Shown here one piece after another: positions 1,461 to 5,668 of a stretch of DNA of 30,425 nt (the first letter of the stretch is position 1; every line of letters starts with the position of its first letter). The position numbers and the translations under genes are program-made. The stretch comes from a virus, in the IMG/VR virus record IMGVR_UViG_3300028298_000021, positions 1 through 30,425 of that record; one strand, given 5' to 3'. The notes beneath the pieces are model-generated. The model worked only from the letters and a program-made list of their open reading frames with translations. It had not been told where the DNA came from and ran no database searches.

Positions 1461-1752
1461 GTTACAGTACACCCAAAAAGTTACACTTCGTTACACTATC
1501 AGCAAAAGTAGTGTAACCGTTATATTATATAGCGTTACAGTTAAAGTTACACTACTTTTAATAATTAATAATAATTAAACAATAAGGGGTATATGTATAC
1601 TATATGTATTAATGTATTACGTATATAGAATAGTCTTAAAGTTATAAAAAGTAGTGTAACAGTGTAACCGAAACCGCTAAAGTGTTGTTAGCGTGGTGTT
1701 TACGGCGGTTACACTACTTTTGAAAGTGTAACATTTTTTGAAAGAGTGTAAC
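1461..1752. repeat. Iteron cluster AGTGTAAC / GTTACACT
   Basis: Nine perfect copies of the 8-mer occur in 273 bp: + orientation (AGTGTAAC) at 1510, 1653, 1661, 1725 and 1745, and - orientation (GTTACACT) at 1480, 1490, 1546 and 1708. Relaxed copies (GTTACAGT) lie at 1461 and 1534, and GTTACGGT at 1773. Four copies carry the longer box AAAAGTAGTGTAAC, at 1504 and 1646 in + orientation and ending at 1559 and 1720 in - orientation. They form two head-to-head pairs that flank an AT-rich core. Nothing similar was noticed elsewhere in the window. This is the pattern of sites for a replication initiator. Confidence 0.85.
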
Positions 1753-1780
1753 CGGTGATTGTGTGTTTGGAAGTTACGGT
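1461..1780. other. Candidate phage replication origin
   Basis: The iteron cluster encloses a highly AT-rich segment at about 1557-1650 (runs such as TTTTAATAATTAATAATAAT), a plausible DNA-unwinding element. The region sits directly upstream of the primase-helicase and SF2 helicase genes, and its right edge abuts the promoter of that operon. Iterons, an AT-rich core and adjacent replication genes together are the usual signature of a theta-type origin. No DnaA box was identified, so recognition by the phage-encoded primase-helicase or an unknown initiator is inferred. Cumulative GC skew and an autonomous-replication assay would test it. Confidence 0.6.
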
Positions 1781-1789
1781 ATAATTTTG
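1758..1789 (+). promoter_or_regulatory. Candidate promoter of the replication operon (Bacteroidota type)
   Basis: ATTG at 1758-1761, a 20-base spacer and TAATTTTG at 1782-1789 match the Bacteroidota consensus (TTTG, 19-21 bases, TAnnTTTG) with one mismatch in the -33 box. A TATAAT hexamer at 1780-1785 overlaps it. The last iteron-like box touches the promoter, which would allow an initiator protein to repress its own operon. The predicted transcript has a leader of roughly 175 bases before the ATG at 1971. Confidence 0.5.
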
Positions 1790-1851
1790 TAGACTAAGGT
1801 AGTTGAAGCTGTAGCAGGCTTAAAGGTAAACGGAAATAAACACAGAATTAT

Positions 1852-1936
1852 GATAGCTCCATTGTGCAGCAGGGTTTTTTACCGACATCCCCGTTGGTTC
1901 GTTTCGCCCAATTGCTACCTGCATGGTGGAGCTATC
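1852..1936 (+). promoter_or_regulatory. Long-stem hairpin in the leader of the replication operon
   Basis: GATAGCTCCATTGTGCAG (1852-1869) pairs with CTGCATGGTGGAGCTATC (1919-1936). The outer 10 pairs and the inner 5 are perfect, separated by three central pairs that include mismatch or wobble. The 49-base loop holds a GGGTTTTTT run and a CCGTTGGTTCG segment. It lies wholly between the promoter and the start codon, so it could be a cis-regulatory RNA, a priming site or a protein-binding dyad. I do not recognise a known riboswitch. Confidence 0.5.
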
Positions 1937-1970
1937 ACTATTTTTGGTAATTGGTTTGGTCGGGACTTAA

Positions 1971-4208
1971 ATGAAGGTTAATAGCATGGGGAACACTGTA
2001 TCAATCTATAAGACGTGTTATCAGACGCGCCCGGTTGAGAGTTTAGAGTTTATTGATGTGCTTGATAGGCTGCGTTGCGGGTATTGGCAGGATGCCTACT
2101 TGCAGTACAAGAATGGAAAAATAAAGAAAACGGATGTTCCGTGTTTTACAACTGCGGGAATGTTTGGTGAAGAGAGGAAGATCAAGGGACTGCTTGAGCA
2201 TAGCGGGTTTATATGTATTGATATAGACGGGAAGAATAATACAGGCGTGGACTTGCTTGGAATGAAGGATACGCTATACGGGGATAGGTATTCGTATGCT
2301 GGCCATTTGTCAATTTCTGGAAGCGGAATTGCGCTGTATGTGCGGATCAATGGGGAGAAGCATTTTGAGAGCTTTTTGGGACTTGAGAAGTATTACGCGG
2401 ATGAGTACGGGATAATTATTGACCCGTCAGGAAAGGATGTGACGCGGTTGCGGTACGTTGTGTATGATCCTGACCTGCACTTGAATGAGAAATCGAAGAA
2501 GTTTACGGACATAGCGAAAAAGGCAGAAGTAGAGTTTGTCAGGAAGGAGTTTGTGTTTGGCGGACGAGCGGATATGGAGTATATCCTTGAGCAGATTGAG
2601 AGTAAGGGATTGGACTTGACTGGATCGTACCATGAGGGAGTGAAGATTGCTTTTGCATTGAACAAAGAGTTTGGTGATGATGGGGAACGATACTTCCAGA
2701 GGATATGCCAGTTCAGGAAAGGGTATAACCCTGAAAAGACGGCGTTGAAGTACACTCAGTGCCGAGGATCGGAAGCGGTGACGATAGCTTCTTTTTTATG
2801 GATAGCGAAGAATGCGGGACTGATGATTAACGCCCCGATGACGAAATCGGTTGTCAAGGCAGCAAGGTACGCAAAGAAGTCGATAGCTGATGGGACGTTT
2901 ACGTCTGAAAGTGCCAGGCAGTCAGCGATGAAGGGAGCTGTTGAGATGGTTGGCATGGATGCGAAGGACGCGGAAAAGGTTGTTGATGCGGTATTTTCAG
3001 GAAAGGATGATGCGGTTTCCGGAGAATCGAAGGATGAGGTGTATGAGTTTTTGACAAAAGACATTGCCGCGCTTGGGTTGCAGTACAATTTGATTGAGGA
3101 CTGTGTTGAATGTGATGGGGATCCGTTGGCGGATCGGTTTGTTGATAAGTTTACCGTGAAGAGTAGGACAAGGTACGGGTCGAAGAATATCATGAAGTCG
3201 CACATAGAGGAACTGATAAGTTCTTCAGCGAAAGATTTTAATCCGATTGAAGATTTTATTGCAAAGAATAAAAGTAAGAGACCAAAAGGATGTATTGATG
3301 CGGTTATTGACTCCATAAAAGGAGATGTATTTGGATTGACTGAGACTGAGGCCGTGCAGTTCAGGAGGTACTATATACGGAAATGGTTGATTGGTGCAGT
3401 AAGCGGATGGGTTGATAAATATTCATTGTTGACCCTTATTTTAGTTGGCGAGCAGATGATAAATAAGACTAATTGGTTCCGGTTTTTGCTCCCCGAATCG
3501 CTTCGTAGGTACTACGCTGAGAGCAAAATGGATGGAACGCCGGATCACTTGGTTCTGATGACGACCAAAGCGATCATAATGGACGATGAGTTTTCAGGAA
3601 AGAGCCGTAAAGAGTCAGCTTTACTGAAAGAGTTGTCTTCAAAACAGGAAATCACGCTTAGGAAACCTTACGCGAGAAGGGCTCAAACTCACAAAAGGAT
3701 TGCAGCTTTGTGTGGGACTACAAATGATGATACGATTCTTAATGATTTGACTGGAAACCGAAGGATCATTCCTATAAATGTAACAGGAATTGATTTTGCC
3801 GCGTTCAATGCTGTTGATAAGGATGATTTATGGATTGAAGTATACCATGAGTTGATGGAAGGAGGTGATTCATGGATGATGACGAAGGAAGATGTATTGG
3901 TTCTTGATAACGCTTCGGAACGGTTCAAGGAACCATGCTCAGAAGAGGAGTTGTTACTGAAATATTTTGCTCCGGCCGTACAGGAAAACGCTTTCCCGAA
4001 TTGGATGACGAACACGGAAATACTTGTTGGGATTGAAAGCAAGTTGAATGGAGGATCGATCCGGTTGACGAAAAACAAGCTTGGATCAGCACTGAAGTTG
4101 CATGGATACGCTCAGGTTATTAAGAAGTTTGACGGAATAACTAAGAGAGTGTATGATATACAGTGGAAAAATGAAAGCGTTTTGTCAACTCAACCAACTC
4201 CATTCTAA
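1971..4208 (+). CDS. Primase-helicase, BT4734-like N-domain plus VirE/VapE-type ATPase
   Basis: This 745-residue protein probably primes and unwinds phage DNA at the adjacent origin. Residues about 40-180 resemble the BT4734/VirE N-terminal domain (CFTTAGMF, then FICIDIDGKNN). The middle resembles a primase C-terminal segment. Residues about 450-690 are a VirE/D5-like P-loop ATPase: Walker B as IIMDDE with D538, D539 and E540, a sensor GTTND, and GNRR (595-598) as the arginine-finger region. The Walker A is odd: GEQMINKTN (493-501) keeps K499 and T500 but has Asn where the family normally has Gly before the Lys. The C-terminal 100 residues look like a winged-helix region. The stop overlaps the next gene as TAATG, implying translational coupling. 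Domain identities are read by eye. Helicase activity is inferred. Confidence 0.8.
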   Translation: MKVNSMGNTVSIYKTCYQTRPVESLEFIDVLDRLRCGYWQDAYLQYKNGKIKKTDVPCFTTAGMFGEERKIKGLLEHSGFICIDIDGKNNTGVDLLGMKDTLYGDRYSYAGHLSISGSGIALYVRINGEKHFESFLGLEKYYADEYGIIIDPSGKDVTRLRYVVYDPDLHLNEKSKKFTDIAKKAEVEFVRKEFVFGGRADMEYILEQIESKGLDLTGSYHEGVKIAFALNKEFGDDGERYFQRICQFRKGYNPEKTALKYTQCRGSEAVTIASFLWIAKNAGLMINAPMTKSVVKAARYAKKSIADGTFTSESARQSAMKGAVEMVGMDAKDAEKVVDAVFSGKDDAVSGESKDEVYEFLTKDIAALGLQYNLIEDCVECDGDPLADRFVDKFTVKSRTRYGSKNIMKSHIEELISSSAKDFNPIEDFIAKNKSKRPKGCIDAVIDSIKGDVFGLTETEAVQFRRYYIRKWLIGAVSGWVDKYSLLTLILVGEQMINKTNWFRFLLPESLRRYYAESKMDGTPDHLVLMTTKAIIMDDEFSGKSRKESALLKELSSKQEITLRKPYARRAQTHKRIAALCGTTNDDTILNDLTGNRRIIPINVTGIDFAAFNAVDKDDLWIEVYHELMEGGDSWMMTKEDVLVLDNASERFKEPCSEEELLLKYFAPAVQENAFPNWMTNTEILVGIESKLNGGSIRLTKNKLGSALKLHGYAQVIKKFDGITKRVYDIQWKNESVLSTQPTPF

Positions 4209-5668
4209 TGTTTGAGCTAAGAGAATATCAGAAAAAACATATTCATGCGTTGCGGATGCTTTTTGCTCAAGGAAAGAAGCGAATTGTGTACCAACAGCCG
4301 ACCGGCGGAGGAAAAACGGCGGTATTCAGCGAAATCACGCGTCTTGCTGCACAAAAAGGAAATAAAGTTTTGATCGTTACTGATCGGAAAGAGCTTCACA
4401 AGCAGGGAAGTGATGCTTTGGTGCGGATAGGTGTTATCAGCCGTGAACTTACGGCAAAAACAAAGAAGATTCCTGATGCGTCAGTGTGTGTCTCAATGAT
4501 TGAGACATTAAAAAGAAGGCTGAAACGACCTGATTATATTGAGTTTGTCCGGGGGTTTGACCTAATTGTTGTTGATGAAATCCATAAATGCGCTTTCAAT
4601 AACTTGTTTGATGCGTTGGATCCCGTTCAACTTGTGCTTGGAGTATCGGCAACTCCATTAAGGACGGGCAAGATGCGAGAATTGAAAATTGACTTTGACG
4701 CTATATACCGAGGTTCAACTATTAAAGAACTGATTGATGAAAAGTTTCTTGCTCCAGCAACTCATTTTGGTGTGATTGTTGACCTTTCTTCTGTTAGAAT
4801 AACAGCTGGAGAATACAATGAAGGCGACCAGGGAAAAGTGTATGGAGATTCAAAACTGTTTGATGGAGTGATTGAGAATTGGGAAAAAAGGGCGAAAGGA
4901 AGGAAAACTCTTTTGTTTGCAGCGACCGTTCAGAACAGTAAGGACATGTGCTTGAAATTGAGAAACGCAGGAATAACTGCTGAACATGTTGATGGAGAAA
5001 CGCCTGATTTGGAACGTGAAAGGATATTCAAAGAGTTTGAAAGTGGGAAGTATGATGTGCTTTGCAATTGCGGTATAGCGACAACGGGGTATGACTGCCC
5101 TTCGGTATCTTGCATTGTGTTGTACCGAAAGACCAAATCGCTTCCGCTTTACTTGCAGATGATCGGGCGAGGAAGTCGAAATTGTGCAGGAAAGAAAGAT
5201 TTTATTGTTCTTGATTTTGGGCAAAATTGGGAAGAGCATGGGTTTTATGACGATGAACGGGAATGGGGGCTGTCAAATCCTAAAAAAAGGAAAAAGACCG
5301 ATACGTATGCGGTAAAAAGTTGTCCGGAGTGTGAGAGACTGCTTCACGCTTCAGCAAGAGTTTGTGCATATTGCGGGTATGAGTATAAGAAATCAGAAGA
5401 AGAAGTTGAGGAAGAGCGGATAGTAGTCATGCTTCAAGAATTGTCGAACTCCGCCTTCCGAAACTTTGTTGCGTCCGCATCTTTGAAAGAGCTTGAGACA
5501 ATACGGAAAATCAAAGGGTATAAAATTGGCTGGGTTATTCATCAACTTCGGACGGTTAAAGAATTGGTTGAGTTTGAAAAAAAGATGAAATACAAAAAAG
5601 GATTTGCTTTGAGAAAAGCAAACGAAATGTTTGGTAAAAGGTTGACCTGGGGAGAGTGTTATGGGTGA
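4208..5668 (+). CDS. Superfamily 2 DNA helicase with C-terminal zinc ribbon
   Basis: This 486-residue ATP-dependent helicase has the full SF2 motif set: an N-terminal Q-like ELREYQ, motif I TGGGKT (32-37), motif II DEIH (123-126), motif III SAT (147-149) and motif VI QMIGRGSR (317-324). A four-cysteine zinc ribbon follows, with C372, C375, C386 and C389. Architecture and length match the RadD/YejH and phage SSL2-like group, which remodel branched or stalled DNA during replication and recombination. It starts within the stop of the primase-helicase gene (TAATG) and overlaps the VRR-NUC gene by 8 bases. The three genes therefore form one tightly packed replication operon. The exact DNA substrate cannot be told from the sequence. 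Confidence 0.9.
   Translation: MFELREYQKKHIHALRMLFAQGKKRIVYQQPTGGGKTAVFSEITRLAAQKGNKVLIVTDRKELHKQGSDALVRIGVISRELTAKTKKIPDASVCVSMIETLKRRLKRPDYIEFVRGFDLIVVDEIHKCAFNNLFDALDPVQLVLGVSATPLRTGKMRELKIDFDAIYRGSTIKELIDEKFLAPATHFGVIVDLSSVRITAGEYNEGDQGKVYGDSKLFDGVIENWEKRAKGRKTLLFAATVQNSKDMCLKLRNAGITAEHVDGETPDLERERIFKEFESGKYDVLCNCGIATTGYDCPSVSCIVLYRKTKSLPLYLQMIGRGSRNCAGKKDFIVLDFGQNWEEHGFYDDEREWGLSNPKKRKKTDTYAVKSCPECERLLHASARVCAYCGYEYKKSEEEVEEERIVVMLQELSNSAFRNFVASASLKELETIRKIKGYKIGWVIHQLRTVKELVEFEKKMKYKKGFALRKANEMFGKRLTWGECYG

Follow-up and report, generated by a model that had tools for sequence, protein, structure and literature searches.

Where does the phage in IMG/VR virus record IMGVR_UViG_3300028298_000021 begin to copy its DNA, and which of its proteins recognises that place? 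The question is raised by positions 1461-1780 of this record, all 30,425 bp of which were analysed here (the window), where repeated copies of the 8-bp box AGTGTAAC lie in front of a primase-helicase gene. Very probably it is here that a Bacteroidota phage starts to replicate its DNA. Sequence, structural modelling and analogy with known systems together make it highly likely that positions 1461-1752 are an origin recognised by the phage's own VapE-family primase-helicase, encoded at 1971-4208. Among known classes, the array is best read as a replication origin of the type used by Staphylococcus aureus pathogenicity islands (SaPIs) and phage-inducible chromosomal islands (PICIs).

A two-armed box array around an unstable core

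Nine exact copies of AGTGTAAC, at 1480(-), 1490(-), 1510(+), 1546(-), 1653(+), 1661(+), 1708(-), 1725(+) and 1745(+), cover 273 bp (1480-1752), and none occurs elsewhere in the 30,425-bp window (0.74 expected; maximum of three across 100 shuffles). Four of the nine extend to AAAAGTAGTGTAAC (1504+, 1546-, 1647+, 1708-) and form two perfect inverted pairs, 1504+/1708- and 1546-/1647+. The left arm is lengthened by two one-mismatch boxes, GTTACAGT, at 1461 and 1534. Nested inverted repeats (1546-1564/1642-1660, 1503-1519/1706-1722, 1475-1488/1724-1737 and 1458-1479/1734-1755) make the region as a whole a dyad with its centre near 1606. Between the two arms, positions 1560-1646 are 83% AT, compared with 55% for the window, and whether 50, 80 or 100 bp are considered, the stretch of lowest thermodynamic stability in the 30 kb falls in the array, starting at 1552-1555. 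An original prediction made from the DNA letters had described the nine boxes, the two inverted pairs and the bracketed AT-rich core, and all three descriptions are accurate. Shuffles and a reversed-pattern control (0 versus at least 120 matches) rule out chance repeats as the source of the array. The only Rfam match to its inverted repeat was a sub-threshold one to mir-728, which we dismiss.

The adjacent primase-helicase resembles iteron-reading initiators

The AlphaFold model of the 745-amino-acid primase-helicase (predicted local distance difference test score 84.9, predicted template modelling score 0.53) matches SaPI PriRep1 bound to double-stranded DNA (7pds) over residues 347-734 (Z 23.4, root mean square deviation 3.9, 356 aligned), and the structures that follow score Z 14 or less. 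A sequence profile of the protein retrieves the PriRep1 entry alone (E 1e-14). Fold and sequence thus both identify a superfamily 3 (SF3)/AAA+ helicase of the Rep/PriRep type with a C-terminal winged helix, which by analogy would load itself. SaPI and PICI Rep proteins act on iterons that flank an AT-rich core (PMC6092414, PMC7581432), one of them being the VapE protein of 7pds, so that the primase-helicase is not without known iteron partners, as had been supposed. Both SaPI Rep and Cch2 of the staphylococcal cassette chromosome SCCmec recognise their iterons through the C-terminal domain (PMC7581432).

The corresponding domain of the window protein is modelled as a winged helix. Its best structural matches are RFX DNA-binding domains (1dp7 and 8zjr; Z between 7.5 and 8.3), the closer aligning 78 residues at a root mean square deviation of 3.1 (Foldseek E 0.19). 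The RFX half-site, which starts with GTT, resembles GTTACACT. RFX proteins are eukaryotic transcription factors, and the likeness is one of fold, with no claim of family. These factors use their wing to contact the major groove (PMC2533330). The Foldseek list also contains, weakly and at low confidence, the origin-binding domain of phage P4 (1ka8), and a sequence search of solved structures with the C-terminal domain alone gave no meaningful match.

The wing of this domain offers a lead towards a recognition code. At the position equivalent to Arg726, which was selected after inspection of the data, arginine is present in 5 of 5 VapE proteins whose boxes are of TGTAA type and in 2 of 16 whose boxes are not (p 0.001), and the latter two carry GTTG-type boxes. 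D5-type proteins adjoining TGTAAC arrays likewise end in GKxxR[VIC][FYI]. We do not claim a full code, because a partial Mantel analysis did not separate the C-terminal domain from the helicase core. Separately, the archaeo-eukaryotic primases (AEP) of the phages with terminase-side arrays described below (L418:6326-7867, L416:10227-11801 and L421:1346-2881) end in an invariant RVW, and their C-terminal stretch resembles the wing of the SF3 proteins. An origin-binding module common to AEP primases and SF3 proteins is possible; these phages give no contrast between box and arginine, because the arginine of RVW is invariant and most of the contigs stop short of the array.

One arm geometry with different box letters

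We denote by O a box pointing away from the core and by I one pointing toward it, and read arms outward from the core. Arrays of TGTAAC boxes then run O-O-I-O-O(-O), and the window has OOIOOO in its left arm and OOIOO in its right, whose spacings of 8, 45, 19 and 20 fit the common geometry. A Saprospiraceae genome bin (L199) has OOIOOO in both arms, at 8/45/22/9/9 and 9/44/22/9/9, and a D5-family locus (L067) has 8/44/21/10 and 8/44/22/10/21. Cores are mostly 84-100 bp long. An OOI start is found in 26 of 59 arms (p 6e-8 versus independent orientation), drawn from loci that were selected for having arrays and of which a few are related.

The decisive check is that the layout is also found in VapE relatives whose boxes have other letters. 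Among 39 VapE arms, 22 have a pair of like-oriented boxes at 7-10 bp followed by an opposed box 41-52 bp beyond (null mean 1.6, maximum 7 in 5000 null runs); with TGTAA boxes excluded, 17 of 29 do (null mean 1.3). Because these ranges were set once the TGTAAC arrays and an initial list of the remaining ones had been viewed, the p-values are optimistic, and it is the effect size rather than the p-value that carries the argument. An arm of the streptococcal satellite Javan720 (8, 43, 12, 22 bp) follows the geometry; S. thermophilus phage 2972 does so in part. We did not find a geometry independent of the box letters, across initiator families, described in the open papers searched. The named Paenibacillus phage LincolnB (L502:4701-4957) conforms to the geometry as well, with GTAACAG boxes spaced 10, 45, 20 and 10 and an AT core, 3' of an annotated DNA primase, and would be a practical test system.

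In all, 80 VapE relatives were retrieved, and 27 of 28 non-redundant proteins were testable downstream. A significant array, meaning one within 450 bp that outscores each of 60 shuffles in a 7-mer test, lies 3' of the gene in 19 of these 27. The nearest relatives (L337-L340, 50-54% identical) lack AGTGTAAC and TGTAAC and have other boxes (GGTAGTA, TTACGACA and similar) in a like place; GGTAGTA belongs to L337, whose primase is 54% identical to that of the window. The original prediction took absence of the box from close relatives that keep the gene as a refutation, and literally read this absence goes against it. The condition was mis-specified, because L337-L340 have other boxes in the same arrangement. 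Boxes 3' of further VapE genes read GTAGTCA (L353), GTGACTA (L350), AAGTGACT (L365), CTACTACA (L343), GTTGTCA (L359), GGTGGTTA (L406) and GGTGGTAA (L375). Since the letters differ at one origin position, they appear to change fast while the arrangement stays constant, which suggests that origin specificity evolves fast. The named Bacteroidota phages P12024L and phi46:1 gave no significant array in the 7-mer test.

Distribution of the box and its gene neighbours

Queries with AGTGTAACAGTGTAAC and AAAAGTAGTGTAAC retrieve a large number of unrelated viral contigs, in which 400 bp hold 5-15 boxes. A pattern with spacers, AGTGTAAC-N(0-12)-AGTGTAAC-N(20-50)-GTTACACT, is present in at least 120 viral contigs, compared with none for the reversed pattern, and in 37 contigs among one-per-species bacterial genomes (the control covering viral contigs only), which belong to Bacteroidota, Gamma- and Alphaproteobacteria, Firmicutes, Myxococcales and Thermodesulfobacteria. 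The box is therefore widespread, not private to this phage. A literature search on GTTACACT returned only primers and unrelated matches, and openly accessible literature on iterons with VapE, primase or Bacteroidetes phages yielded no earlier description of it.

The genes beside the arrays are mostly of two kinds, SF3 primase-helicase and small-terminase genes. Arrays adjoin VapE genes (L116, L199, L218, L257, L271, L284) and D5/DUF5906 genes (L028, L217, L208, L024, L025, L289), mostly at 2-50 bp, and DUF927-type genes within about 100 bp (L047, and L221 at about 90 bp). The DUF5906 SF3 domain occurs in 22 of 38 records, selected chiefly for their boxes, and in 2 of 38 viral records used as controls (Fisher p 4e-7), the controls being 14-mer AAAAGTAGTGTAAC matches without arrays, convenient rather than matched.

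A model for initiation and the systems it resembles

The SF3 primase-helicase neighbour, the melting core and the arm geometry common to relatives with other letters together give good support to origin function and to a defined initiator complex over simple repeats, both as first proposed. In the mechanism we propose, the C-terminal winged helix of each primase subunit would dock on one AGTGTAAC box, and the layout of five or six boxes per side would let one ring assemble per arm. The two rings, facing each other, would melt the core at 1560-1646, after which bidirectional synthesis could start from primers made by the protein's own primase domain. Boxes of the right arm, when occupied just upstream of the promoter, may also damp primase expression. 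One ring per arm and melting of the core are proposed by analogy with SaPI Rep and SCCmec Cch2, whose iterons are recognised by the C-terminal domain.

More broadly, we lean towards a single origin grammar, independent of letters, for the self-loading SF3 primase-helicases of phages and satellites. It would comprise an AT core of ~85-100 bp, a doublet at 8-9 bp, an opposed box ~45 bp out and further boxes at ~22 and 10-11 bp (close to whole turns of the helix), with five to six boxes per arm serving one hexamer each and letters set by the C-terminal wing (Arg726 with GTT-starting boxes).

The closest known counterparts are SaPI/PICI origins (PriRep1, 7pds; E. coli PICIs, PMC6092414), to which Javan720 provides a satellite of like arm geometry. 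The window differs from them in coming from a tailed phage, which encodes a portal, capsid and terminase itself and is not a satellite, has a probable Bacteroidota host, uses the box AGTGTAAC and carries its array 5' of the initiator gene, not directly 3' of it. SCCmec Cch2 resembles the proposed initiator as a self-loading helicase, and its C-terminal domain, taken alone, binds short iterons next to the gene (PMC7581432). Its putative origin contains three AAGTG iterons, placed downstream of the gene, in contrast to the eleven boxes in two arms of the window. The alpha protein of phage P4 is, like the window protein, a phage-encoded primase-helicase with a C-terminal winged-helix origin-binding domain (1ka8). 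We found a single array and no second, crr-like AGTGTAAC cluster in this 30-kb linear fragment. P4 itself has iterons and the second region, crr.

Several observations weigh against this account. Among the VapE set the 5' array is seen only in the window, and 19 relatives have theirs 3'. The left arm has the right order of orientations with spacings of 12, 22, 22, 10 and 19, where 12 and 22 replace 8 and 45. Some array-bearing phages have the same boxes beside terminase genes and no SF3 match. As to the wing, its arginine was singled out post hoc, in the D5 family it is frequent alongside other boxes too, and in the partial Mantel analysis of the VapE family iteron similarity correlated about equally with the C-terminal domain (r 0.14) and the rest of the protein (0.15). 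The 5' placement is found in two records, because a second contig (IMGVR_UViG_3300028176_000107, 8716 bp; L009/L060/L336) has an identical primase with the same nine boxes 5' of it.

Alternative readings of the array

The array could instead be a packaging start (pac/cos) recognised by the small terminase subunit, and a second class of phages, with compact TGTAAC arrays 0-83 bp 5' of Terminase_2 genes and no SF3 match nearby, points that way, as does a marginal small-terminase match (phrog_4044, E 0.058) of the orphan 199-amino-acid protein encoded upstream of the array at 458-1057. We regard this as improbable. The array of the window abuts the primase gene with the large terminase 4.5 kb off; the 458-1057 product matches nothing in Pfam even at E 10, and tblastn finds no phage relative of it; Terminase_2 is present in only 11 of the 38 array records, fewer than DUF5906; and VapE phages hold an array next to the SF3 gene across many box letters.

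The terminase-side arrays (L231:3175-3339, L237:13510-13615, L239:2217-2424, L247:966-1162, L254:10277-10367 and L301:9451-9629) consist of three boxes in about 40 bp, including opposed ones, beside a poly-A/T tract; they may be either origins or packaging sites. The records of L247, L240 and L260 encode DNA polymerase A and an AEP-type primase, with no SF3 helicase detected, and relatives of such phages have TGCTACA or CGTAACG at that place.

Slightly less credible is a role as operator only, in which a repressor or autoregulator would use the boxes to control the replication-operon promoter at 1759-1789 with no part in an origin. The distance from the final boxes to the promoter match downstream is indeed 7-27 bp. 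Two symmetric arms that together place eleven boxes over 290 bp round an 83% AT core go far beyond the needs of an operator, and the arrays of relatives lie 3' of the gene, where there is no promoter for it.

That a host protein, or another DNA-binding protein of the phage, reads the boxes and recruits the primase-helicase in a DnaA-like role would fit the occurrence of the same box beside different SF3 families, in records with no detected SF3 match and in genomes of several phyla, but is the least probable of the three, since the nearest relatives in like phages have quite different boxes, a diversity that one host factor would leave unexplained, no common second gene was found beside the arrays, and DnaA boxes show no enrichment (27 against 30 expected; none in the array). 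No DnaA box TTATNCACA with up to one mismatch occurs in 1400-2000, and a classical iteron plasmid origin of the RepA/RepE type with DnaA boxes was rejected on this ground.

Promoter, neighbouring genes and the viral record

The features around the proposed origin are collected in Table 1. The Bacteroidota-type promoter consensus, TTG-N20-TAATTTTG, is well established; it has three matches in the window versus 0.47 expected, and the one at 1759-1789 makes it plausible that the array runs into the replication promoter, as originally suggested. The hairpin in the leader belongs to no Rfam family.

Table 1. Positions of the array elements and of the features that follow them in the window
Feature	Position	Strand	Remarks
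Degenerate box L6, GTTACAGT (ACTGTAAC on the - strand)	1461-1468	-	Outward
Perfect box L5	1480-1487	-	Outward
Perfect box L4	1490-1497	-	Outward
Extended box L3, AAAAGTAGTGTAAC	1504-1517	+	Faces core
Degenerate box L2, GTTACAGT	1534-1541	-	Outward
Extended box L1	1546-1559	-	Outward; innermost of left arm
AT-rich core	1560-1646		Presumed duplex-unwinding element; holds most of the least stable 50/80/100-bp stretches
Extended box R1	1647-1660	+	Outward; innermost of right arm
Perfect box R2	1661-1668	+	Outward; 8 bp from R1
Extended box R3	1708-1721	-	Faces core; 45-47 bp from R2
Perfect box R4	1725-1732	+	Outward
Perfect box R5	1745-1752	+	Outward
Bacteroidota-type promoter match, TTG-N20-TAATTTTG	1759-1789	+	Reads toward primase gene
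Imperfect long hairpin (TGATAGCTCCA...TGGAGCTATCA)	1846-1942	+	Leader between promoter and primase; folding z -2.4
Primase-helicase, 745 amino acids	1971-4208	+	Proposed initiator; BT4734-like_N, PriCT_2, VapE-like SF3 domain, C-terminal winged helix
Primase C-terminal region, residues 632-745	3864-4205	+	Winged helix; proposed box-reading domain
Codon of wing Arg726 of the primase	4146-4148	+	
ResIII/DEAD-type helicase	4208-5668	+	Start overlaps primase stop

The ResIII/DEAD-type helicase is a probable replication partner of the primase. Beyond it follow a VRR-NUC nuclease, the large terminase, a P22-like portal, the capsid and an SU10-type adaptor, and tail genes are also present in the window; with this virion gene set the element is not a PICI satellite. 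The record, being a linear one of 30,425 bp, is perhaps a fragment. To the left of the array GC skew is about 0, and to the right it is +0.27 to +0.39. This change bears on the skew check first suggested, but it is confounded because nearly all genes sit on the + strand, and a linear fragment allows only a partial test of cumulative skew.

Implications for phage replication origins

The origins of most uncultured phages are unknown, and a geometry common to VapE, D5 and DUF927 initiators may allow them to be found from sequence alone. The same geometry would also tell which protein reads the origin, and with it a recognition code can be put to the test through exchanges of wings and boxes. Because this organisation occurs in many phages, it is probable that PICI and phage replicons have a common ancestry or trade modules.
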